Origin: Pseudomonadota bacterium
GTDB lineage: Bacteria; Oederibacteriota; Muellerivitia; Muellerivitales; Muellerivitaceae
DNA length: 58,330 bases
Assembly: GCA_021324075.1 (NCBI GenBank)
Contig: JAJPJW010000190.1
Span: forward strand, 1-58,330
Direction: 5' to 3'
Part shown: positions 24,671 through 40,545 of the stretch, piece after piece
How the letters are laid out: each line of letters opens with the position of its first letter
How positions within the stretch are numbered: the stretch's first letter is position 1
Notes under the pieces: model-generated
The model's database searches: none
Seen by the model: the letters and a program-made list of their open reading frames with translations, nothing else
Told to the model about the DNA's origin: nothing
Translations under genes and position numbers: made by a program

Positions 24671-27600
24671 TCAATGGATGACGGAAATCTTGAGGATTTG
24701 TCGTCCAATCAACCCGCCGTTTTGGGGATTGATCAATTCAGCCACCGCGATATAAAGCCCGCTGGCCTTGCCGGCGGCGTCCCAGGAGGCTTGGTTGGTG
24801 CCCACCCCGCCTTGGGCCGTCCCCACCCGTTCCCCTGCCACCGTGTAAATCTTCACCCTGAGGGTATAGGCCGAAACCGACGGTGCCGTAAAGGAAACCA
24901 CCGTATTCGCCCCGGTTAGGACATTCGGCGCAGCCACCACCTGGTTCAGGTGGTCATCCTCTTCGACCGTGATCTGGCGGGTCAAATCCTGGATCTGGCC
25001 GTTGCCGTTGTTCCAATGGACCCCGATGACATAGGAACCGCTGGTGACGATGGCCCCCGCGTCATTGGTCCCATCCCAGGTCAGGGTCACCCCTCCCGTG
25101 GAGGTTTCGATAAGGATTTGGGCGGCGGAAGCGGGACTGGGCGTGGTGGTGTCGGGCTGGATCACGCCGGAACTCAACTTGACGTCGGTCATGGAGGAAT
25201 TTGGAACGCTGGCCACCTGGACATAGAGATGCCGGACCACTTCCCCCGCCTCGTTGTAAATATTGGCGCTCAATTGGGCATAGGGCCGGGTGACCGTGAC
25301 GTTTTGGGAGACCGCGATGACGTTCCCCGAGGGGTCCACGCTTTGGGAGGTGATGATGTAAGCCCCGTTGGTGGCGGGATTACCCGAGGAGGCATTGCCG
25401 TTCCAAACCGCGATGGGAATGCCTGCCAAATAAACCGTCACCGCACCGCTGGCCCCGCTCAGGGTGGTGATCTGGTTGGACCCCAGGGAGAACGAGCTGA
25501 TGGCCTGCATATTTTGCTGGGTGTAAAGGGTGGCTACCAATTCCCCGGCGGAGTTATAGACCCCGATCTTCACCGTGTAACCACCCAAAGCAGACACTTG
25601 GGCACTGGACCTCAGCGGCGGGGCGCCGGGATAGGTGAGGACGGCGTTGTTGACAAGCAAAGTCCCGGCCGGGACCAGGTTGTTGATCTGGGCCTGGTAG
25701 GAAAGCCGGTAGGTTCCCGGGCTTAAGGGCGGCAGGGTCCAGGCCAATTGATTCAAGGAAGGGTTATAGGCCGGGGTGGGAAGTGAAGCCGGGCTGTTCG
25801 CCGCCGGCCCCAGGTAGCTCATTTGGGCCGGCAGGGTGTCGGTCACCACAATGCCCGAGGTGGCGGAGTTCACGTAAAGGATCAGGTTGTAGGTAAGGCC
25901 CGTACCGGGTGCGGCCTGGCTGGCCGAAACCTGCTTGGCAAAGTTGACCTGTAGGGTGGGAGTGGCGGTGGCCGTATCCGTGGGTGTTCCCGTGGGGGTA
26001 AAGCTGGACGTCACGGTGGGGGTGAAGCTGTCCGTGGGCGTCTTAGTGGCCGTCGGTGTATCGGTGGACGTCCAAGTATTGGTCGAGGTCCAGCTAGGTG
26101 TGAAGGTGCGGGTGTTGGTTGGAGTGAAGCTGTTGGTGGGGCTGTTCGTCGGCGTAGGCGTATCGGTCGGGGTCCAGGTATTGGAGGGCGTGAAGCTGGG
26201 CGTATCGGTTCGGGTGTTGGTGGGGGTAAAGCTGTTGGTGGGCGTATTCGTGGGCGTGGGCGTGTCAGTTGAGGTCCAGGTGTTGGTGGGGGTGGAACTG
26301 GGTGTATTGGTACGGGTATTGGTGGGAGTGCTTGTGGGCGTCGGGCTGTCGGTGGAGGTACAGGTATTAGTGGGTGTGAAGCTGGGGGTGTCCGTACGGG
26401 TATTGGTCGGGGTACTCGTGGGCGTGGGCGTATCGGTGGAGGTCCAGGTATTAGTGGGTGTGAAGCTGGGAGTATCCGTACGGGTATTGGTCGGGGTGGC
26501 CGTGGGGGTGTCCGTCCGGGTGTCGGTTGGGGTCCGGGTGGCGGTGGCCGTGTCCGTCATCGTGGCCGTCTTCGACGGGGTGGCGGTGGCCGTATCCGTC
26601 CGGGTGTCCGTAGGGGTACGGGAGGCCGTGGCCGTATCCGTCACAGTGGCCGTATTGGTCGTGGTGGCGGTGGCCGTATCCGTCCGGGTATTGGTGGCCG
26701 AACTGGTGGCTGTCGCCGTGGCCGTGTCCGTCCGGGTGAAACTGGCGGTGGCCGTAGCGGTGGCGGTCCGGGAGGCGGTGGTCGTGGCCGTGTCGGTGGC
26801 CGTCCGGGTGGTTGTAAAACTGTTGGTGGCGGTGGCGCTGGCCGTGTCCGTGGCGGTGCTGGAGGCCGTATGGGTGCTGGTCGCAGTCTTGGTGGCGGAC
26901 GCGGTCGCCGTCGCCGTAAAGCTGTCCGTAACCGTGGGGGTGTTGGTCGTGGTTTGGGTGGCGGAGGAAGTGGTTGTGGCCGTGGCCGTCTTGGTGGTTG
27001 TGGCCGTGGTCGTATCGGTGGTGGTTTTTGTGGAAGTGGCGCTGGCCGTGGAGGTCGTCGTCGGGCTCGGCGTCCGTGTCGGGGAGGGGGTGGGGCTGGG
27101 CGTAAAGCTCGGGGTGGGGGTCGGCGTGCAGGTGCCGCCCAGGAAATTGGTGACGGCGTTGGAAGTCAGGAGGTTCGGGGTCAGGTAGCAGGTCTCAAAA
27201 TCCTTCTCGGCGGCCTGGTTGATGATCGTGGCCGCGCAGGCCCCGTTCGCCAGCCCCTTGACCGTGACCGCGAAGGAGAGGGTACCGGAGGCGCCCGGGG
27301 TCAGGTAGCCCACGTCCCAGCCCACCACGTTGCCCGACTGGAAGGTCACGGGAACCGTGGGGTTGCTGGTTTGGGAGCCGCTGACGAAACCCGTCCCGGT
27401 CGGGATCGTATCGAAGACCACCACCCCGTCGTCGTAATTCGTATTGCTGGCGTTCTTGTAGGTGAGGGTGTAGGTGATGGTCTGCCCCGCGTTGACCTGC
27501 CCGGTGGGATTGTTGGCCTTAGCCAGGGTCACCGAGGCCGGTGCGCAGGCGGTCCAGGTGGGACAGTCAAAATAGCCCCAGGTGTAGTGCCCGCCCTCAT

Positions 27601-28516
27601 TGCAGTCGTAGGAAGTGACCTCAATGGTGATCTGCTGGCCCGCGTAAGGACATAGGTTGAGGGTATAGGGCGTCCAGGGGAAAATGCCCCAATGGGTCGG
27701 GTCGCCCGGGTTGACCTCACAGCCGCCGGTTCCGGACCCGGGCGGGGTCTGGGTGTCGTAACCATAAGTCCCCGCCTGGTTTCCCAATAGGCCGTCCAAC
27801 TGCAATAAACCGCTGTTGACCAGGTATTCCCAGTTCAAGAGAAGGTCGAAAAGCACCGTGTTGCCGGGATTGGCGGTGCTGCAATTGGCCGGCCCCAGCA
27901 GGACCCGCACTTCCAGGTAGCCGTCGCCGAGGGGGTTGTTGGGTTGATTCAGGTAATGGTAGTTCTCGAATACGCCCGCCACCAGGAAGTTCAGGCAGGT
28001 GTTGCCGTTGGTGGGCACGGTGGTCGTTTGGCAGACCCGGGCCCAGTCGTTGTGGTTGGCATCCCCATGGCCGGAAAAAAGCTGGACGGCCGTGGTCTGG
28101 CCAGTGGGCACCATGGGAAGCATCCCGTTGGAGTTGGGGGCGAAGCCCGGTGCGGTTTGGCCCGGATAAACCGTGCCGTTGGTCACCTGCGTCACTTGGC
28201 CAACACAGTCCGCGTTGCCGCCGGTTCCGTTCACACCGCCAGCGGTGGCCGACACCCCCGCGTTGACCACCGAAGTCCAACTGGTCAGCCCATTGGTAAA
28301 GCAACCGTTCGGCCAAACCTGGGCGTGAGATGGGGAAGCCGGAGAAAGGACCGCCAAAACCGATAGGGCAAAAAATTTCACAAAAAGGAAGGACCCACTC
28401 CTCCCCGGTGGTATCCGATCCGGACCCGGGGAAGGATGAGAAATAGGGAAAAATGGATTAAGGCTGGACCCTTCCTTGTCATAGGAAAAGGCCTTTTGTT
28501 TTTTCACAGACAACAT
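24671..28516 (-). CDS. Giant Thr-rich surface protein, paralogue A (intact)
   Basis: The 1281-residue product has a long N-terminal n-region, a hydrophobic signal segment (~43-65, ending SHAQ), a beta-rich domain of unknown type (~66-320; [26 protein letters not shown]), a DUF11-like domain (~330-450; [12 protein letters not shown]), a Thr/Ser/Pro-rich stretch of ~390 residues (~462-854), a second DUF11-like domain and three FlgD-like Ig modules ([44 protein letters not shown]). It ends like a FlgD/T9SS-type C-terminal module ([12 protein letters not shown]). Probably an exported adhesin or stalk protein, inferred from architecture. It is closely related, domain by domain, to the split pair at 34301-38452. 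The start has GGA spaced about six bases upstream. Confidence 0.85.
25950..27125 (-). repeat. Thr-rich low-complexity coding repeat of paralogue A
   Basis: About 1.2 kb encodes short units such as TATATATS and [16 protein letters not shown] in degenerate tandem copies. The unit composition shifts along the tract from T/A/S-rich to T/P/N-rich, as expected from repeat slippage and duplication. The opposite strand shows long valine/glycine-rich open frames that are artefacts of the periodic sequence. Confidence 0.9.
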
Positions 28517-28923: not shown

Positions 28924-29616
28924 TTATTTTTTGGGCGGGGCCAGTTTGTAACCCACTTGTGGAATCGTCTCGACGCGTCTTCCCTCCGGGCCGAGCTTGA
29001 CCCTGAGGTGGCCGATATGCACATCCACGACCTTGGGCACGATGGCCGTGGCAGGACCCCAGGCCATCTTCACGATCTCTTCCCGGGTAAAAGCCTTTCC
29101 GGGGTTGGCCAATAAGACACGCAAAATATCGAACTCCCGCAAGGTCAGCGGAAGCGGTTTGTCCACACACCAGGCTTCGTGGGAAGAAGGCGAAAGGGTG
29201 ATGTTGCCCGAGGTGATGCGGTCGTCCTTGGGCGTCAGGGGCTGGCTACGCCGCAGGATGGCCCGGGCTCGGGCCAGGAATTCCCTTTCATTAAAGGGTT
29301 TGGGCAGGTAGTCCTCCGCCCCCGCTTCCAGTCCCAACACGATATCCTCGGAAGATCCCCGGGCGGTCAGGATGAAGATCGGCAAGACGCGGTCTGGGTA
29401 ATCCTTCTTGATCGCCCGGCAAATATCAATGCCGTCCATATCCGGCAGTTCCAAGTCCAGGACCACCAGGTCGAAATCGGCCGACCCGACAACCTTGAGG
29501 GCCTCGCCCCCCCTGGCGACGGTGGTAACGCCGTAACCTTCCTTCAAAAAAAGGTCCCGTGTGATGAGGGCCACCGCCGGGTCGTCCTCCACCACTAGGA
29601 TGGATGTTTTACTCAT
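28924..29616 (-). CDS. OmpR-family response regulator
   Basis: The 230-residue protein has a receiver domain (1-~120) with the acidic pair in LVVEDDPAV, the phosphorylatable Asp in LVVLDLELPDMDG (~54) and Lys in YLPKPFN (~105), then a winged-helix DNA-binding domain (~135-230; LTLREFDILRVLL, VDVHIGHLRVKLG, GYKL). It is the last gene of the operon, 27 bp after the histidine kinase, and is its likely partner. Targets probably include the surrounding surface-protein genes, which is inference from position. Confidence 0.95.
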   Translation of the reverse strand: MSKTSILVVEDDPAVALITRDLFLKEGYGVTTVARGGEALKVVGSADFDLVVLDLELPDMDGIDICRAIKKDYPDRVLPIFILTARGSSEDIVLGLEAGAEDYLPKPFNEREFLARARAILRRSQPLTPKDDRITSGNITLSPSSHEAWCVDKPLPLTLREFDILRVLLANPGKAFTREEIVKMAWGPATAIVPKVVDVHIGHLRVKLGPEGRRVETIPQVGYKLAPPKK

Positions 29617-29643
29617 GCTTTTCCCCTTGCCGATCGGGCATTC

Positions 29644-31047
29644 TCAAAAACGCGCCGGTTGCTTGGGCAGGACCACCTTGAAGGTGCTGCCGGCCCCCAG
29701 GGCGCTTTCAACGGTGATCCTTCCCCCGTGGGCCTCCGCCAACCCCTTGACGATGGTCAACCCCAACCCGCTGCCTTGCCGGGCCGGAGAGCCGCTCGAC
29801 TGGTGCACGCGGTAAAACTTGTCGAAGACCAACCGTTGATGGGAGGGATCGATACCGATACCCGTATCCCGGACTTCCAAAACGAAATTGCCGTCCTCTT
29901 CCGAGAGGAGGATCTCCACTTCCCCCCGGGGGGTGAACTTAAGGGCGTTGGACAGAAGGTTTAGGACGATCTGCCGGAACATGGTCACGTCCGCCACCAG
30001 CGAAAGGTAGTTGCTTTTGCGGGTAAGGGTGAGTTTGAGCCCCTTTTCCGCGGCCTGGGGACGGTAGAGGTCCACCAGCTCCTTCACGTGGGCGTGGACG
30101 TCCACCGGTTCGGGATAGGGGTCCACCTTGGCCGCTTCGATGCGGGCGGTGGTCAGGAGGTTGTTGATGAAGGACGTCAGGTTGGCGGTGCTGTTGGAGA
30201 CCATCAACAGGTACTCGGACTGCTTTTCCGTCAGGGGCCCCGCGTCCCCGGCCTGGAGGAAATTGATGGCGCTGCGGATGGCGTGCAGAGGCGTGCCCAG
30301 GTCGTGGGTGACCCCGGAAATGAAATCCCGTTTCATTTCATCCAGTTCCTTGAGCTGGGTCACCATGGCGTTGAAATCCCGGGCCAGGTCCCCGATCTCG
30401 TCCTTCCGGCGGACCTCCACCAGCGAATCCAATTTGCCGGACCTGACCAGGTGGGTGCCGTCGCGGATCTTCCGCAAGGGGGCGGCCAATTGGCGCCCCA
30501 ACCCCAGGGAAAGCAGCAGGCCGATGACCAGCGCCGCGGCGCCGGCCTCCAGGCCCAGTTGGGCCCAAACCTTCGTCTGCTCGCCCAATTCCCTTTCCAG
30601 GGCCGATTGGGAATAAGCCAGCCAGACGCGCCCCGGCATCCCGTCGGGGGACCCCACGGCGGAGGTCCATTGCACCAGCCGCTCCCCGTCGGGGAGAAGG
30701 CGGAGGACGGGCGATTCGGGCCCGCCCTCCGCGGCCGGGAAGAAACCTTTTTGGAGGTTTTCAGGAAGGACCAGCCGGACTCCCGTCGCGGGATTGTAAT
30801 AGGCGGCGCAGGCCAGGTCCGGGTTCTTCAACGCCGACCGCATGAAATTCAGGACGGCCACGTCCTCGTGCTGAATCATGGATTCCTTGGCGGCCAGCGT
30901 GAAATCGGAGAGCTGTTGCACCTGGTGGAGCCTTGCCTGCTGCTGGTAAATCCTCCGGACCCCCCCATAGGCCAGGAAAAAGACGATGCAAAGGGAAAGG
31001 GCCACCACGCCGCTATGGCTGGCGAAAAAACGGGTCGCGAGCCTCAT
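29644..31047 (-). CDS. Membrane sensor histidine kinase
   Basis: The true start is ATG at 31047, whose ATGA overlaps the stop of the PorV-TPR gene; a longer in-frame extension to 31659 is only a shadow of that gene. The 467-residue product has TM1 (~13-34), a periplasmic sensor region (~35-165), TM2 (~168-192), HAMP (~193-245), HisKA with the phospho-acceptor in GVTHDLGTPLHAI and an HATPase domain with NALKFTP, DTGIGI and GSGLGLTIV. The first module's input is unknown; coupling to a PorV-like protein suggests it watches the outer-membrane export step. Confidence 0.95.
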   Translation of the reverse strand: MRLATRFFASHSGVVALSLCIVFFLAYGGVRRIYQQQARLHQVQQLSDFTLAAKESMIQHEDVAVLNFMRSALKNPDLACAAYYNPATGVRLVLPENLQKGFFPAAEGGPESPVLRLLPDGERLVQWTSAVGSPDGMPGRVWLAYSQSALERELGEQTKVWAQLGLEAGAAALVIGLLLSLGLGRQLAAPLRKIRDGTHLVRSGKLDSLVEVRRKDEIGDLARDFNAMVTQLKELDEMKRDFISGVTHDLGTPLHAIRSAINFLQAGDAGPLTEKQSEYLLMVSNSTANLTSFINNLLTTARIEAAKVDPYPEPVDVHAHVKELVDLYRPQAAEKGLKLTLTRKSNYLSLVADVTMFRQIVLNLLSNALKFTPRGEVEILLSEEDGNFVLEVRDTGIGIDPSHQRLVFDKFYRVHQSSGSPARQGSGLGLTIVKGLAEAHGGRITVESALGAGSTFKVVLPKQPARF

Positions 31048-32819
31048 TTCTTTTCCGTCCCTTCTTCCATCTTGACGCGCGTGATGTTGTTCAAAGCGTT
31101 CACGTTGAGGGGGTCGGTTTGGAGCACTTCCTGCCAATCCCTCAGGGCCGCTTCCGAGTCCCCGCCCGCATAGGCTTTCAGGCCGGCCTGTAAAAGCCCC
31201 CGCACCCGGGCCTGCTGGGAGTCGGAAAGCTGGGAGGCGGGACCGCTTTCCTCCTGGTTTTCCGCCAGGTTCTCCTGGGCCAGGGCATTGCCGGGGTCGG
31301 CCCTGAGCATTTCCTTCCAGGTTTGCCGGGCCAGGTCCAAGCGGCCCTTGCTGCGGTAAATTTCGGCCTCCACAGCCAGTTGCTGCATCTTGCGGTCCTC
31401 TTGTTCCGGGAGCGAAGCGGCCTTGCGGGAAAAGGCCTTGGCCACATATTGGAGGAAAGGATCGTCCGGGTAAAGGGCCCGTGCTTTCTTGATCCTCTCC
31501 AAGGCCCGGTCCTTCTGCCCTTTGCGCAGGAATTCGACGGATTTCTCCAGCAAATCCCTCACCCGGCCGTCGCTCAAGGCCCCCCGGGACACGGATTTCC
31601 GGGTCCGGTCCAGCCCTTCCTGGTACCGGGCTTCCCCCGGACTGAGCGAAAGGGCCCATTCATAATCCTTTTGGGCGTCCAAGTCGTCGCCCTGTTTCTC
31701 GGCCTGGACGCCCTCCTGGAAATAGGCCTCCGCCCTTTGGTGGTTGTACTGTTTGAGCGATTCCGCCCGGCCCTGGAGCACCGTGGGGTCGTTGGGCCTC
31801 AGTAGGTAGGCCTGTTGGTAGTACCAGAAGGCGTCCTTCCATTTTTGGGCTTGGGTGGCTTCCTTCCCTTTGCGCAGCAATTGGTTGAACACCCGTGATT
31901 CCCGGGAAGCGGTTTCCCAGGTGAACCCCACTTCCAAAAGGTGGCTTCCGGGTAGTCCGACACCGTTGATCGCGGGCGATTGGTTCCAGGAAAACTGGTA
32001 GGCGTAATCGATGGTCAGGCCCGTTGTCCGCCATCCAAAACCCAGGCTTCCCGTGGAGTCATCCCCCCCCGCCCGGAGCGCCACCCCCCATTGGGTGAAG
32101 TTCCATTCGGCGCCCGCCTGGGTGGAGAGGTTGCTCCCGTTCCAATCCTGGGACAAGTTGAGGATCAACTTGTCCTGCCCCACCGGCGGGCGGAAGGCCG
32201 CGCCGTAACGCAGGACCAAAGGCACCAGGTCCGTCCCCAGGACCCCCAGGTTGGGCTGGTTCAAATCCTCGCCCGAAACCCCCAGGCTCACCCAGGGAAA
32301 GGGGTCGAAGAGGGCGCCCGCCCCCACTGAAAAGGCCCCGGAGGAAACGTTGGAGGGATTAACCCCCGCCAGGGGGTCCTGCAGGGTGAACTGCTGGCGC
32401 AGGAAGGACAGGCTCAACCCCAGGCGAAGGGGGTGGAGGAAAGTCCCTTCGTCGAAACTTTTTCCGAAGGCGGCCTGGAGCCGGTCCTGCTGCAGCGTGG
32501 AAGCCCCGAAATGGTCCAGTGAAAAACCCAGGCCGTCCCCCGGGTCCAGCGGCAGGACGGCCGAAAGGTTTCCGGTGGAAAGGCCGTCCCCTCCAATGCC
32601 GGAAAAAAGGTTTTCGTACCGCGCCGAGACCTTGAACTGGATTTCCCCTCCCAATCCCGCCGGGTTGAAGGCCAGGCTGGAGGTGCCTTCGGGAAGGGCC
32701 ACCCCGTTGCCGCCCAAGGCCGCTTCCCGGGCGGGAACGCTGAAGTCCAGGAAGGCTGCGCCGCAGAGGCGGGGAAGGGTGAGGAAAAGCGCCAGGGCGG
32801 CGTAAAGGAAACGGGTCAT
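31044..32819 (-). CDS. PorV/PorQ-like outer-membrane barrel with C-terminal TPR domain
   Basis: The 591-residue protein has a signal peptide (cleavage near LCGA) and then a PorV/PorQ-type (UPF0164) barrel (~22-300) whose opening, SVPAREAALGGNGVALPEG followed by LAFNPAGLG, is the family hallmark. From ~305 to the end it carries TPR units (FWYYQQAYLLRPNDPTVLQG; EKSVEFLRKGQKDRALERI; WQEVLQTDPLNVNALNNI). PorV proteins shuttle C-terminal-domain cargo in type IX secretion; the TPR fusion is unusual. It overlaps the upstream secreted-protein gene and the downstream kinase by ATGA at both ends, so all are one operon. Confidence 0.88.
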   Translation of the reverse strand: MTRFLYAALALFLTLPRLCGAAFLDFSVPAREAALGGNGVALPEGTSSLAFNPAGLGGEIQFKVSARYENLFSGIGGDGLSTGNLSAVLPLDPGDGLGFSLDHFGASTLQQDRLQAAFGKSFDEGTFLHPLRLGLSLSFLRQQFTLQDPLAGVNPSNVSSGAFSVGAGALFDPFPWVSLGVSGEDLNQPNLGVLGTDLVPLVLRYGAAFRPPVGQDKLILNLSQDWNGSNLSTQAGAEWNFTQWGVALRAGGDDSTGSLGFGWRTTGLTIDYAYQFSWNQSPAINGVGLPGSHLLEVGFTWETASRESRVFNQLLRKGKEATQAQKWKDAFWYYQQAYLLRPNDPTVLQGRAESLKQYNHQRAEAYFQEGVQAEKQGDDLDAQKDYEWALSLSPGEARYQEGLDRTRKSVSRGALSDGRVRDLLEKSVEFLRKGQKDRALERIKKARALYPDDPFLQYVAKAFSRKAASLPEQEDRKMQQLAVEAEIYRSKGRLDLARQTWKEMLRADPGNALAQENLAENQEESGPASQLSDSQQARVRGLLQAGLKAYAGGDSEAALRDWQEVLQTDPLNVNALNNITRVKMEEGTEKK

Positions 32820-34075
32820 CGCATCACGGTAACGGTCCCTCGGCGCACCGTTCCATCCGATTCCAAGAGATAGAGATAGAGTCCGGAGGAAACGATGGCC
32901 CCTCCATCATCCCGGCCGTCCCATTGAACGTCCTGGCCGGGGGAAAAATCAAAGGACCGTATTTTCCGCCGACGCAAATCCGCGATCACCACTTGCCCCG
33001 CACCGTGTCCCGGCGGAAGGTTGAAATGGGCGGAGTGGTCCGTCGGGAGTTGGGGGGTAAAGGGATCGGGCCAAACGAAATGTCCCGGCGTGGGACTGGG
33101 GGTGCAGGTGGCCCCCGGATAGCCGCAAGGGGCGGGCGTCCAGGTTGGGCTGGGGGTGGCCGTGGGGGTGGGAGTGATGGTGAAAGTCCCAGTTGGCGTG
33201 GGACTGGAACTGGGGGTGGAAGTGACCGTGAAGGAAGGGCTGGCCGTGGGGGTCCGGGTGCCGGTGGGGGTGGGGCTGTCCGATGCCGTGGAAGATGCCG
33301 TCAAACTGGGCGTCCAGGTCGGGGTGGGAGTGGCGCTCCGCGTCGAAGTCGCGGTGGGAGTGTCGGAGGCAGTGGGGGAAAGGGTGAAACTGGGCGTGGA
33401 AGTAGGGGTAAAACTGGGCAGCGAACTCACACAAACATTGCCGAAAACGGCCGTGGAAGGCGAACTGTTGGAGCCGCTCCAAACGACCAACCCGTAAATA
33501 AGGTTGTTTCCGGCGAAATAAGGGCTATCCCCGCTCAGGTCGAAGGAAGGCGTGGGAAGGGGGGTCCAACTGGCCCCGTCGGTGGAAACGGAGGGATAAA
33601 GTACCAATCCCCTGTTTTGCAGCTGCAGCCAGTTGGGCGGCGCCGCCACTGTTTTGGATTCCAGCACGGTCAAAGCGGCGTCATTGGTCCGGTCGGCGAA
33701 TTGGGTGGTGGTCAGGGCCGGTCCCCTTATCCACAGCAGGCCGCCGTCGCCCCCCGCGCTGGTTCCCCCGCGGATGAAGATGCCCGCCACCGTATTTGTT
33801 CCCACGAAGCCGTTCACGCCTTGCAGTTGGGCTTGGATTTGGCCGTCCCCCGCCAAAGTGACATAGGCCGTCCCGGCGTTTTCGAACATTTGCGTCGTGG
33901 CGAATTGGCCCGTTCCGCTCAGGGTCACCAGACCCGAACCCGCGCTGAAATTACCAGAGCTCGAACCCCAACTGTCGGGTGTCAAGGTCGGAACAGGGCA
34001 TTGGGCCTCCACGGCCGGGGCCGCTAAAACCGATAAAAGAAAAAGAGAAAAACGGTGAAATTGACGAACCCCCAT
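32816..34075 (-). CDS. Secreted Thr/Pro-rich protein with FlgD/T9SS-like C-terminus
   Basis: ATG at 34075 has GGGAAGGGA just upstream and gives a signal peptide (residues ~5-24, cut near VEAQ), so it is preferred over an in-frame start at 34117. The 419-residue product then has a beta-sandwich domain resembling laminin-G/DUF1349-type lectin folds (~30-215), a Thr/Ser/Pro-rich linker (~220-320) and a C-terminal module (~325-419) with FVWPDPFTPQ, VQWDGRDDGGAIVSSGLYLY and a basic end (TVTVMR) like FlgD-Ig or T9SS type A sorting domains. It is the first gene of the four-gene operon and the likely cargo of the PorV-like protein. Confidence 0.85.
   Translation of the reverse strand: MGVRQFHRFSLFLLSVLAAPAVEAQCPVPTLTPDSWGSSSGNFSAGSGLVTLSGTGQFATTQMFENAGTAYVTLAGDGQIQAQLQGVNGFVGTNTVAGIFIRGGTSAGGDGGLLWIRGPALTTTQFADRTNDAALTVLESKTVAAPPNWLQLQNRGLVLYPSVSTDGASWTPLPTPSFDLSGDSPYFAGNNLIYGLVVWSGSNSSPSTAVFGNVCVSSLPSFTPTSTPSFTLSPTASDTPTATSTRSATPTPTWTPSLTASSTASDSPTPTGTRTPTASPSFTVTSTPSSSPTPTGTFTITPTPTATPSPTWTPAPCGYPGATCTPSPTPGHFVWPDPFTPQLPTDHSAHFNLPPGHGAGQVVIADLRRRKIRSFDFSPGQDVQWDGRDDGGAIVSSGLYLYLLESDGTVRRGTVTVMR
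33100..33420 (-). repeat. Thr/Ser/Pro-rich low-complexity coding tract
   Basis: The linker of the secreted protein consists of short degenerate units such as SPTPTGT, TATPSPT and SPTASDT. It has the same style as the tracts in the two giant paralogues, so the three genes share a linker type. Confidence 0.8.
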
Positions 34076-34300
34076 AGTCCCTTCCCGTGCTGGATTACCA
34101 TCCGGGTCCCGGCTCATAAGCGGGGTCCTTTCATAGGCCGTCCGGCGGGTCTTTTCCTAGGTTAACGGAATATAAAGGGATGCTTCGTTATAGATTTGGT
34201 AAAGGAAAACCCGCGGAAGGGTCGCACAAGAAACGGCCTCCTTCCAGACAAAGGAAGGCGGCTCCAATCCCAGACCAAATGAGGAGAAGGACGCCAGGGT

Positions 34301-37267
34301 TTAGTGAACGACCTGGACCTTGACCGTCCGGCGCTCCAGAAGCCCGCCGTGCGAATCCAAGACCTGAACCACCGCCAGGTAGGTACCGCTGGCCATACCC
34401 GAGGCATCCCAACTTACCTCATCGGCACCGGGGTACCCCGCCGTGGTCTTTACCCGTTCGCCGGCGAGGGTATAGACGGAAATATTTAAGGTCCAGGCGC
34501 CGGGGACATCGGCCCGAAAGGTGGTCACGCTGACGCCTTGCGAAAGGTTGAGCAGGTTAGGCCCAGCCACGACGCTGCCCGTGGACCGGGAGCCCGTCAC
34601 CACGATGCTCTGGCTCAAGTTCTGTATCGTTCCGTTCCCATTGTCCCAGTGGACCCCGATCTCGTAGGTTCCGTTCGTGACGATGGCCCCGGCATCATCC
34701 GTTCCATCCCAAACCAGGGTGACCACCCCCTGGGAGGTTTGAATGAGGATTTGGGCGCTGGAAACAGGGCTGGACGGGGTGGTTCCCGGCCTTATGAAAT
34801 TCGAGCTTACTTGGACCCCCGTCATTTGGGAGCCTGGAACGGCCAGTACCTGGGTGTAAAGGTGCCGGACCACTTCCCCGGCTTCGTTATAAACGCTGGC
34901 GCTGACCTGGGCATAAGGCCGGCTCACCGTCACCTTTTGGGAAACCGTGATGACATTCCCCGAGGGATCGGCGCTTTGCGCCGTGACGAAATAGGCGCCA
35001 TTGGTGGCGGGGTCCCCTGAGGCGGTGTTGCCGTTCCAGACCGCGACGGGGATGCCCGCCAAATAAACCGTGACCGCGCCGCTTGCCCCTGCCAGGTCCG
35101 TGATGCCCGCCGAACTTAAAGTGAGCGCGTTGATGGCCTGCATGTTTTGCTGCGTATAGAGGGTGGCCACCAACTCCCCGGCGGAGTTATAGACGGAGAT
35201 TTTGACCATATAACCGCCCAGTGCCGCCACTTGGGCGCTGGCTGTCAGCGGCGGGGCGCCTGGATAGGTGAGGACGGCGTTGTTGGTCAACGAGGTTCCG
35301 GCGGGTATCAAGTTGTTGATCTGGGCCTGGTAGGCAAGCTGGTAAGTGCCCGCCGGAAGGGCCCCCAGGGTCCACACCAATTGGTTGGTTCCGGAATTAT
35401 AGGCCGGGGCTGGAAGGGAGGAAGGGTTGCTGGCCACGGGCCCCAGGTAGGTCATTTGGGACGGCAGGCTGTCGGTGACAGACATTCCCGCTATGGTTGC
35501 GTTTAGATGCAGTGTCAGTGTGAATCCTATCGGCACCCCGGGTTCGGCTTGGGCCACGGAAGCCTGCTTCGAAAAGGCGATTTGGAAGGTGGCCGTGGGT
35601 GTGGAAGTGAAGCTGGGTGTTCCCGTGGGACTGGGCGTATCCGTCGTGCTAAACGTGGGCGTCCAGGTGGAAGTAAAGCTGGAGGTGGACGTCGAAGTTG
35701 CCGTCAGGGTGAAGGTGGGGCTGTTGGTGGGGGTAGCGCTGAAGCTGGCCGTCGGGGTGGCGGTGAAAGTTGCCGTAAAGGTGCGGGTGGCTGTAAGAGT
35801 AGCCGTAAAACTATCGGTGGCCGTGGCCGTAAGGGTTGGGCTATCCGTGGCCGTTTGGGTTGCCGTCTTGGTAGGCGTAGCTGTCGGTGTTTCGGAGGTA
35901 GTGGAGGTGGCCGTATCGGTTGGGGTGGAGGTGGCCGTGAAGCTGGGGGTGGCCGTAAAACTATGGGTGGGTGTGGCCGTGGCGGTAGGGCTTGCGGTAT
36001 CCGTAGTCGTTTGGGTTGCCGTCTTAGTGGCTGTAGCCGAGGGGGTTTCGGAGGCGGTAGAAGTGGCCGTGGCCGTCGCGGTCCAGCTGGACGTGGAACT
36101 GTTGGTGGGTGTGGAACTGCTCGTGGCGGTAGCGGTATTCGTCGGAGTTGAGGAAGGCGTGAACGAGTTGGTGGGGCTCAGCGTGCCTGTCAAGGTCGCC
36201 GTAAGGGTGGCGGTGCGGGTGGCCGTATCCGTAATGGTGGAGGTCGCCGTAGGGGTCGGGGTGAAAGTGCCGGTATCGGTGGTGGTTTGGGTGGCGGTGC
36301 GGGAGGCGGTGGCCGTAAAGCTGGACGTGGTGGTGGAAGTGGTGCTGGCCGTGGCCGTGGAGGAAGCTGTTGAGGTGGTGGTGGAACTCGCCGTCGAGGT
36401 GGCGGTACTGGAGGCGGTGGAGGAAGCGGTTGAAGTAGCGGAGGCTGTGGCGCTGGCCGTGGCAGTGGAAGTGGCACTGGAAGTACTTGTGCTGGAAGCG
36501 GTGAAAACAGCCGTGGCGGTGGGCGTTCCGCTGGGAGTGAAGGTGGGCGAGCACCCCCCCACGAAATTAGTGACGGCGTTGGAGTTCACCACGTTCCTTG
36601 TCCGCGGGGTGGGTGTATTGGTGGGGGTGCCCGTAATCGTGGAGGTATAAGTCAGGGTTGAGGTATTGGTGGGAGTGCGGCTATTGGTGGGGGTGGGAGT
36701 GTTCGTGGGGGTTGAAGTGTTGGTTCGTGTATTGGTAACCGTGGGCGTATTGGTGACCGTGCGGGTATTGGTGGGAGTCCTCGTGCTCGTGAGGGTTGGG
36801 GTGTTGGTGGGGGTAAAGGAAGCGGCCTGGAAAGTGGCCGTCAGGTTGGGAGTATCAGTCACCGTGGGGGTGTTAGTGAAAATCCGGGTATTGGTTGGCG
36901 TCCGGGTGTTCGTGATGGTGAAGGTATCGGTGATGGTGGGTGTATTGGTGGGAGTACCCGTGTTGGTGGGCGTACCCGTTGAGGTTCGGGTATTAGTAAA
37001 GGTACGTGTATTGGTGATCGTAGGTGTATGGGTCCGGGTATTGGTATTGGTAAGGGTGGGCGTGCTGGTCGGCGGGATGATTTCAGTGGGAAAAAGCGTC
37101 GAGGTAGGGGTTGGAACCTGGGCCAGGCCCTTATCAGCGGCTGCCAATAAAAGAAGGGCACTCAGTAGAAGGAAAAAGTATAGAGCGCGGCCGCGTGGCC
37201 CCTTGACCACAAGCCGAAGGCCGTTGAAGGTTGGATGCCCAGGTTTCAAATTGTTTTGCTGAGTCAT
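34301..37267 (-). CDS. Giant Thr-rich surface protein, paralogue B, C-terminal part
   Basis: ATG at 37267 is chosen because GAGGG lies six bases upstream; 37273 is an in-frame alternative. The 988-residue product has a ~30-residue n-region and a strong hydrophobic signal (~28-50), a Thr/Asn/Pro-rich stretch, the short bridge [14 protein letters not shown] (~225), a second Thr/Ser/Ala-rich tract, a DUF11-like domain (~560) and three FlgD-like Ig modules ([45 protein letters not shown]). The C-terminal ~430 residues are clearly homologous to paralogue A. The first ~225 residues have no counterpart in A. Probably exported and surface-located, by architecture. Confidence 0.85.
35590..37115 (-). 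repeat. Thr-rich low-complexity coding repeats of paralogue B
   Basis: Two tracts, 35590-36545 (T/A/S-rich) and 36605-37115 (T/N/R/P-rich), flank the conserved bridge at about 36553-36600. The two differ in unit composition, so they were probably acquired or amplified separately. Confidence 0.85.
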
Positions 37268-37285
37268 AAACATCCCTCGAATCGC

Positions 37286-38667: not shown

Positions 38668-40545
38668 TTAGGTTTTCCGTTCGCTCTTTTTGTTTTTGAG
38701 CCAGTTCCGGAATTCCTGGGGGGTCATCCGGGTGGTTTTTTTGAAGACGTCGAAGAAATACTGTAGGTTGTTGAAACCGCATTCCTGGCTCACTTGGGCG
38801 ATGGGAAGGGCGGTGGATCCCAATAGCTCCTTCGCCCGTTCGACGCGGATTTTTCTCAGGTAGGCGGAAAACCCCATGCCCGTTATTTTTTTGAAGCCGC
38901 GTCCCATCACCGAAACGGAAAATCCGTTGGCCCGCGCCACCTCCTCCAGCCTCAAGGGCCGGCTGAAGTTTTCCGTGATGTATTTTTGGACCATTTCAAG
39001 GCGGAACTTCTGGGATGTTTCAGCGGGCTTCAGGCTGAGGGCAAAAAGCCTTTGAAGGGATTCCTGAAAAACCGAGATCACATCGGAAATGGTTCCGGAC
39101 GTGTTGAGCTTCCTCTCGAAGCTGTCGAATAAGGCTTTAAGGTCCCCCTCCTGGGCCGGCAACCGCTTGCGCAGGCCGTCCACCATGTTGCCGAAGGTGT
39201 AAAGGAAGTGAAGCTTGATGTTCTCGGATTTTCCCCCCGAGAAAGCCAGTATTTGCTTGATGTACTGGCCCCGCACCCCTTCGATTTCGGATGTCCGGCC
39301 CTGGGTATAGGCCTCGATAACAGCCTTGGACATCGCATAAAAATCCGTCGGTTCGGGGATGGTGGGATTGGTACGGATGTCCTCGTAAAAAAGGATGGGT
39401 CTGCCCAGGGGCTTGCAGTAGTTCAAGGAGGAAACGGCTTGTTGGAAGACCTTGGAAAGGTTTCCCAAGGGATAGCGGGTCCGGCTGACCCCCGCCAACA
39501 CCTTGGCCTTGAGGCGGGTTTCGGCGAAGCGGGAAACCAGGTCAATTTTGTCGAGAATCCCCAGCTTTTCTTGGGTTTCATTCTGCCCCGCATCGGCGGA
39601 AGTAAAGTAAAGGACTCGGTTATTGTCCAACGGGCCGGAAACGGTGTTGGGTATGGTCCTGGAAAACTGGAAGAGTTCCTTCTGGAAATAATAGTTTCGC
39701 AGGATATATTCCAATTCCAGGTCCCCTTCCGTGGCCTGGTCGTCCAGTTGAAAGGCGATGACCGTGGTCGGGGCCCTTTCAATGCCCTGCTCTTCCCGCT
39801 GCCACTTTTCCGCTCGGTCCCTTTCACTCCACCACACGGGCGGATAAAAGCGGTTGTTCTTGACGGCCGTTTCCGTCCAGAAACGGTGGGGCAGATGCCT
39901 GGCGAAAACCTCGTTTTTCAGTTTCTCGACCTGATCGCAGGCCGTGGAGGCGCCGAGCCCGCCCCCGATGACTTCGGCGTAGATTTCCAGCGTTTCCTTC
40001 AAGCCCTTGTAAACCGGCCCCTCGACCAGGGGGGTCTGCAGGAGGGCGGTCACATAGCGGAAAAAATCCGGCTCAAATTCCTGGGGTTTTAAGCCGGTCA
40101 ATTTTTCCCAGGAGTTCAATAGGAAGGCCTTGTCCGGCCCCTTGGCTAGGAAAACTCCGGACTGGAGGATGCCGACGGGTTTTCCTTCCCGTAGGATCGG
40201 GACAAAAAGGCTGGAAAGCCCGTTGCGCGTACCACAATAAGCCTTCCGCTGGTCCAACGTTTTTTCGATGCAGGATCGGTTGTAAGCCTCCCGCTCCTCC
40301 CTTTTTCCGAAAAGGTCGTCGAATTCAACGGGCCAGGATTCCCGGTTGTGGTACCGGATGGGGCTCCAGGAATAGGGGGGATCTTTGGAAATGAGCCAGC
40401 ATTCCAGGTCCAAATAAAACTGCAGGATACGGACCAGGCCGTAATAAGGAAAAACCTGGTCGGTCCAATTCGCTTTAGCTTTCCCGGAAGGCATCCGTTC
40501 TCCTGGCCATAAGGCCCATTCTTTTTCCGTGCGAAGGCTTTTCAC
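38668..40545 (-). CDS. AraC-family transcriptional regulator with large sensor region
   Basis: The 625-residue cytoplasmic protein ends in a canonical AraC/XylS DNA-binding domain (~520-620; RPLRLEEVARANGFSVSVMG, LPIAQVSQECGFNNLQYFFD, MTPQEFRNWL). The N-terminal ~200 residues are GAF/PocR-like (YCGTRNGLSSLFVPILREGK) and the middle is of unknown type (no conserved motif recognised). The GTG start overlaps the stop of a 19-codon leader ORF. It is immediately upstream of the split surface genes and is a reasonable regulator of them. Ligand unknown. Confidence 0.88.
   Translation of the reverse strand: MKSLRTEKEWALWPGERMPSGKAKANWTDQVFPYYGLVRILQFYLDLECWLISKDPPYSWSPIRYHNRESWPVEFDDLFGKREEREAYNRSCIEKTLDQRKAYCGTRNGLSSLFVPILREGKPVGILQSGVFLAKGPDKAFLLNSWEKLTGLKPQEFEPDFFRYVTALLQTPLVEGPVYKGLKETLEIYAEVIGGGLGASTACDQVEKLKNEVFARHLPHRFWTETAVKNNRFYPPVWWSERDRAEKWQREEQGIERAPTTVIAFQLDDQATEGDLELEYILRNYYFQKELFQFSRTIPNTVSGPLDNNRVLYFTSADAGQNETQEKLGILDKIDLVSRFAETRLKAKVLAGVSRTRYPLGNLSKVFQQAVSSLNYCKPLGRPILFYEDIRTNPTIPEPTDFYAMSKAVIEAYTQGRTSEIEGVRGQYIKQILAFSGGKSENIKLHFLYTFGNMVDGLRKRLPAQEGDLKALFDSFERKLNTSGTISDVISVFQESLQRLFALSLKPAETSQKFRLEMVQKYITENFSRPLRLEEVARANGFSVSVMGRGFKKITGMGFSAYLRKIRVERAKELLGSTALPIAQVSQECGFNNLQYFFDVFKKTTRMTPQEFRNWLKNKKSERKT

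Follow-up and report, generated by a model that had tools for sequence, protein, structure and literature searches.

The four minus-strand genes at positions 28924-34075 of the window, the whole stretch of 58,330 nucleotides analysed here, raise the question of whether a bacterium can equip a single exported surface protein with its own outer-membrane shuttle and its own signalling system. The window is contig 11 of a metagenome-assembled genome (G000; 3.57 Mb, 98% complete) of an uncultured bacterium of the candidate phylum FCPU426 (candidate division FCPU426). An earlier note on this DNA described the genes as a secreted cargo with a C-terminal domain (CTD) like that of type IX secretion system (T9SS) substrates, a PorV-like barrel carrying tetratricopeptide repeats (TPR), a histidine kinase and an OmpR-type regulator, and proposed a cassette that monitors or controls surface-protein export. 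Our analysis confirms cargo-barrel-kinase-regulator as a real, conserved unit. We consider it reasonably probable that the operon is a self-contained cassette for exporting a surface protein through a T9SS-like pathway, with a dedicated cargo-shuttle pair and its own regulation.

The open reading frames and junction sequences agree with the claimed layout. The cargo gene (32816..34075, 419 aa) and the barrel gene (31044..32819, 591 aa) meet at GCGATGACC, an ATGA overlap at 32816-32819, and the barrel gene and the kinase gene (29644..31047, 467 aa) meet at AAATGAGG, a second ATGA overlap at 31044-31047. The regulator gene (28924..29616, 230 aa) follows after a gap of 27 nt. The first ATG of the cargo frame lies at 34117, and the ATG at 34075 gives, by eye, the better signal peptide. 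Close orthologues of the barrel are present in G003 (candidate division FCPU426 bacterium palsa_1180), G004, G005 and G018. The complete cargo-barrel-kinase-regulator order is found in G003. The same order is found in G005, where a contig end cuts the regulator, and in G004 until the contig ends within the kinase; in G018, the operon is split between two contigs, the one carrying cargo and barrel up to its end and the other the barrel tail, the kinase and the regulator. Since the gene order recurs in these four genomes, at 39-71% protein identity across two families, the array is not a product of chance. A scan of the contig collection with the barrel alignment returned three records (G003, G004 and G018), and the same scan with a single barrel sequence returned no match. 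Among the 45 FCPU426 genomes that underlie all phylum-wide counts, a profile of the kinase sensor region gives strong matches in the same five genomes only (E of 1e-40 or better), and the next best match is at 6e-6. Both orthologues, barrel and kinase, occur in 5/45 genomes and neither in 40/45, and they are never found apart (Fisher p=8e-7, phylogeny ignored). The other two members of the window's genus lack the operon, and so do G006 and G007.

The sequence and structure model of the shuttle place it in the PorV family. NCBIfam PorV_fam (NF033709) matches the barrel with E=2.7e-14 and 53.5 bits, below the 90-bit curated cut-off, and TPR families of Pfam and NCBIfam match behind it. PorP/SprF membership is not indicated, as TIGR03519 reaches E=1.3e-7 and 31 bits against a cut-off of 90.55 and PorV_fam scores higher. 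AlphaFold2 modelling (four orthologues) predicts a barrel part of 14 beta-strands (~aa 23-301; 31917..32753) followed by a TPR part of 14 helices (~aa 306-585; 31065..31904), with a mean pLDDT of 72 and a pTM of 0.47. In the PDB, the barrel is most similar to the PorV of a substrate-bound T9SS translocon (8gl6; TM 0.59 by target length), then to FadL, with PorV 6h3i close behind. The predicted 14-strand FadL-type architecture thus goes together with a PorV sequence signature. Because the strand number is even, the C-terminal TPR array should face the periplasm. The earlier note had singled out a PorV-TPR fusion with its own kinase as a combination that it did not recognise. The kinase half of that claim holds, as the unusual part of the operon is the private two-component system; the fusion itself is frequent across the phylum and not special to this locus.

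The cargo comprises a signal peptide, a passenger domain, a Thr/Pro/Ser-rich linker (T 31%, P 22%, S 19%) and a C-terminal immunoglobulin (Ig)-like domain. This tail, the last 95 codons (32819..33103), is the best conserved part of the protein, with 55-62% identity between orthologues. It is modelled as an Ig-like sandwich with a core pLDDT >85, and its structural matches are FlgD first, then PorZ, PorU, NucA/RemZ and the mirolase CTD; every one of these matches is weak (E about 1e-3 to 0.1). The modelled tail appears to have the FlgD/CTD fold, and its context suggests that it acts as a putative export signal. In G018, the passenger part is unrelated while the tail and the barrel are conserved; the tail and barrel therefore look like a matched pair. 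On either side of the operon, the window encodes two large proteins with Thr-rich repeats, FlgD_ig domains and weak Por_Secre_tail C-termini (34301-37273 and 24671-28516), which, judged by sequence, are likely further cargos outside the operon.

The cargo-shuttle pairing extends well beyond this locus. G000 contains 25 PorV-family matches, some of them pieces of one gene, corresponding to ~20 genes, and its family relatives contain 10-29 matches. In G003 and G005, a CTD-like tail is encoded by 26/33 of the genes immediately upstream of PorV-family genes on the same strand and by 20/216 other genes nearby (odds ratio 36); most seeds of the tail profile came from the window's genome, and the three genomes are related to one another, so that the test is not fully independent. 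The upstream count leaves out PorV-family genes themselves, and the survey omits three PorV matches without an assignable frame. A shuttle gene directly downstream of a tailed cargo gene is thus the rule at these PorV-family genes as well as at the five orthologous loci, and CTD-bearing genes systematically adjoin PorV homologues. Many of the junctions are 4-nt overlaps like that in the window, and the order of tailed gene and then PorV-TPR gene is the same in other families of the phylum. Since the pairing is widespread, the window's pair is one of a series, to which the two-component system is an unusual addition.

Several other PorV-TPR cassettes have no kinase link and are associated instead with an extracytoplasmic function (ECF) sigma gene and, behind it, a gene for a ~250-aa protein (L104:3299-7694, L107:1357-6552, L110, L112, L123, L127, L128, L129, L133, L150 and L152). 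The ~250-aa protein has a short N-terminus that is anti-sigma-like by eye and a FlgD_ig/CTD-like C-terminal domain. A moderately hydrophobic stretch is a possible membrane span; the hydropathy scan called none. Of the 15 near full-length homologues in G000, G003 and G005, 13 have a PorV-family gene at a distance of no more than about 5 kb. Outside the window's family, full-length homologues are lacking and the tail domain alone matches. We infer that this protein is a putative anti-sigma factor; together with the ECF sigma factor, it is possibly a second wiring of cargo-shuttle pairs to gene control. Two further arrangements of PorV-family genes were seen. At L040:4087-5931, and at the same place in G003 and G005, a PorV-family barrel is fused to FlgD_ig and an OmpA domain of the peptidoglycan-binding type; by analogy with PorE, this protein is a candidate for anchoring to the cell wall. 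In three genomes (L106:122-8378, L130 and L147), two overlapping PorV-family genes stand next to genes that look flagellar (FlgI/FlgH/FlgA-like, with a sigma factor; assigned by eye).

The type IX core is recovered in part in this genome, and 'T9SS-like' is the right level of claim for the pathway. The SprA/Sov translocon is represented by a predicted divergent homologue: a frame of 2033 aa at G000:C155 shows collinear partial matches to TIGR04189, of which the best (3e-32) stays below the curated cut-off, and the NCBIfam SprA model finds a divergent SprA-like protein in most of the phylum. A profile comparison aligns 1032 columns of the family alignment of this protein (E=5e-30) with a stronger SprA found outside the phylum; this SprA in turn reaches 7e-70 against that of F. 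johnsoniae. The FCPU426 SprA-like profile had no direct match in the PDB, so the SprA link rests on the intermediate sequence. The Pfam SprA_N model is uninformative, with no match even in the control genomes. The earlier note had named two findings that would speak against it, a genome without type IX core genes and PorV-TPR homologues never next to CTD-bearing proteins or kinases. Given the SprA-like gene and the PorV/CTD pairing, neither was encountered. In four family genomes (L064:9428-17598, L065, L066 and L067), the SprA-like gene lies in a constant order, behind genes for a LytS-type histidine kinase and a LytTR regulator and ahead of one for a giant fn3-type protein.

The signalling half of the operon is placed firmly by Pfam and NCBIfam. 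The kinase has HAMP, HisKA and HATPase_c domains and, by hydropathy, two membrane spans that bound a probable periplasmic sensor domain (~aa 31-163; 30559..30957), which is kept in the five orthologues. The regulator has Response_reg and Trans_reg_C domains (Pfam, NCBIfam) and is of the OmpR/PhoB type; it is not of the PorX type, as it has Trans_reg_C instead of the PglZ domain. Two candidate additions to this circuit were rejected. The sequence TTAACCTA occurs upstream of the cargo gene and of the 24671-28516 gene in the window but is not conserved in other species. An AraC-type gene (38668-40545), weighed as a possible fifth member of the operon, has a relative with 51% identity that immediately follows the operon in G003; its paralogues occur family-wide, also in genomes without the operon, and its association with the operon is therefore probably incidental. 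In L035 and L038, which belong to another family of the phylum, two membrane proteins that by eye resemble HAMP-type signalling proteins are encoded a few kb away from the pair of tailed gene and PorV-TPR gene.

Taken as an export cassette, the operon would work as follows. The signal peptide would carry the cargo across the inner membrane, and the Ig-like C-terminal domain would pass the SprA-like outer-membrane translocon; the co-encoded PorV-type barrel would then receive or hold the cargo, as homology and gene pairing suggest. The periplasmic TPR array could dock to the translocon, the motor or another partner. From the operon structure and co-inheritance, the kinase and regulator would adjust expression of the cassette, with either the periplasmic state of cargo and shuttle or an outside cue as the kinase signal. 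If PorU is missing, the tail may not be removed and the barrel may act as an anchor; this would account for a separate barrel for each cargo.

Several results weigh against this interpretation. The domain content named in the earlier note stands, with a weak match at the tail: FlgD_ig at the cargo C-terminus has E=0.0045, below the Pfam cut-off, Por_Secre_tail has no match in the cargo, and no C-terminal sorting domain exceeds a curated cut-off. The sub-threshold PorV_fam score of the barrel and the weak structural matches of the tail point the same way. The earlier note had also proposed a search for the type IX core, which recovered the SprA-like translocon and left PorU unaccounted for: the PorU C25 peptidase (PF01364) is not found in 8 genomes of the host's family, and the same search matches elsewhere. 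The GldM model is silent everywhere, also in genomes with a strong SprA, and is therefore uninformative on the motor. Kinship is uncorrected in the co-occurrence of barrel and kinase and in the pairing test, and the upstream regions of the orthologous operons showed no regulator box in common.

What the kinase senses is the point at which the explanations diverge. The conserved order in five genomes bears out the cargo-plus-shuttle-plus-sensor cassette of the earlier note and does not extend to its suggestion that the kinase monitors export; control of its own cassette is the more likely role. There is a nearly even chance that the two-component system responds to an ordinary cue, from outside or from the envelope, by turning on an adhesin or a binding protein together with its carrier, so that export itself is not sensed. 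A HAMP kinase of standard type, whose periplasmic domain is small, and a regulator of the OmpR/PhoB type are what such a circuit would contain, operon-encoded two-component systems usually control their neighbours, and the patchy distribution suits a niche trait. However, the kinase sensor region is strictly tied to the barrel in the 45 genomes, which an ordinary cue sensor need not be, and the CTD-like tail of the putative anti-sigma factor in the sister cassettes hints at a signal from the export step. A more specific idea, which we regard as speculative and rather unlikely, is that the kinase reads the occupancy of the TPR array, or unexported tails, as a one-protein secretion checkpoint, and that the sister ECF sigma/anti-sigma pairs, with a CTD mimicking the tail, follow the same logic.

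The two remaining explanations dispense with type IX export or with a functional link. The barrel could be a FadL/UPF0164-type channel for small hydrophobic molecules, with the cargo as its accessory protein at the surface and the two-component system as a substrate sensor. UPF0164 barrels are widespread and of the same superfamily, FadL is the next-best structural match, and the failure to find PorU in the family fits. We nevertheless consider this improbable, because PorV ranks top by both structure and sequence, the genome encodes an SprA-like translocon and CTD-tailed partner genes stand upstream of most PorV-family genes in the surveyed genomes. Still less probable, and in our view very unlikely, is an accidental neighbourhood in which the two-component system was inserted behind a cargo-barrel pair. 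The operon was evidently gained or lost, as it is missing from the two congeners of the window's genome and from one more genome of the genus of G003, but the barrel/kinase overlap, the order kept in two families and the finding of neither close orthologue without the other all oppose it.

The export cassette that we favour resembles known systems in part. In the T9SS of Bacteroidota, type B CTD cargos and PorP-SprF shuttles form cognate pairs, with the shuttle encoded directly downstream and the two probably stoichiometric (PMC12618676). The FCPU426 loci follow the same principle, in that the gene of each tailed surface protein is immediately followed by one for a dedicated outer-membrane shuttle, probably employed stoichiometrically. 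They differ in the PorV-family barrel with fused TPR, the FlgD/type A-like tail, the private two-component system, the phylum and the divergent SprA. The T9SS PorV structures (8gl6 and 6h3i) share the 14-strand FadL-type barrel, yet in that system one PorV without a TPR array handles every type A cargo, whereas ~20 PorV-family genes, mostly paired with cargo genes, are present here. In P. gingivalis, the CTD protein PorA acts upstream of the PorXY two-component system and SigP (PMC7712824), which likewise ties a CTD-bearing surface protein to a two-component system, with an ECF sigma factor recurring in our sister cassettes. PorX, however, has a PglZ domain and acts on SigP, whereas the OmpR/PhoB regulator described here shares one operon with cargo and shuttle; no kinship is claimed.

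Cargo-shuttle pairing is itself already known, and what is unusual is the private two-component system on a PorV-TPR cargo-shuttle pair. A one-operon combination of cargo, PorV-TPR and two-component system outside Bacteroidota was not found in the searched literature, which comprised open-access papers. To our knowledge, experimental work on type IX secretion has been almost wholly on Bacteroidota. The FCPU426 operon suggests that export in these bacteria is controlled separately for individual surface proteins. If this is true, type IX-like export can be split into separately controlled channels, with private regulators for single cargo/PorV pairs, and the four-gene operon offers a compact unit for asking how a cell senses that export of a surface protein has been completed.

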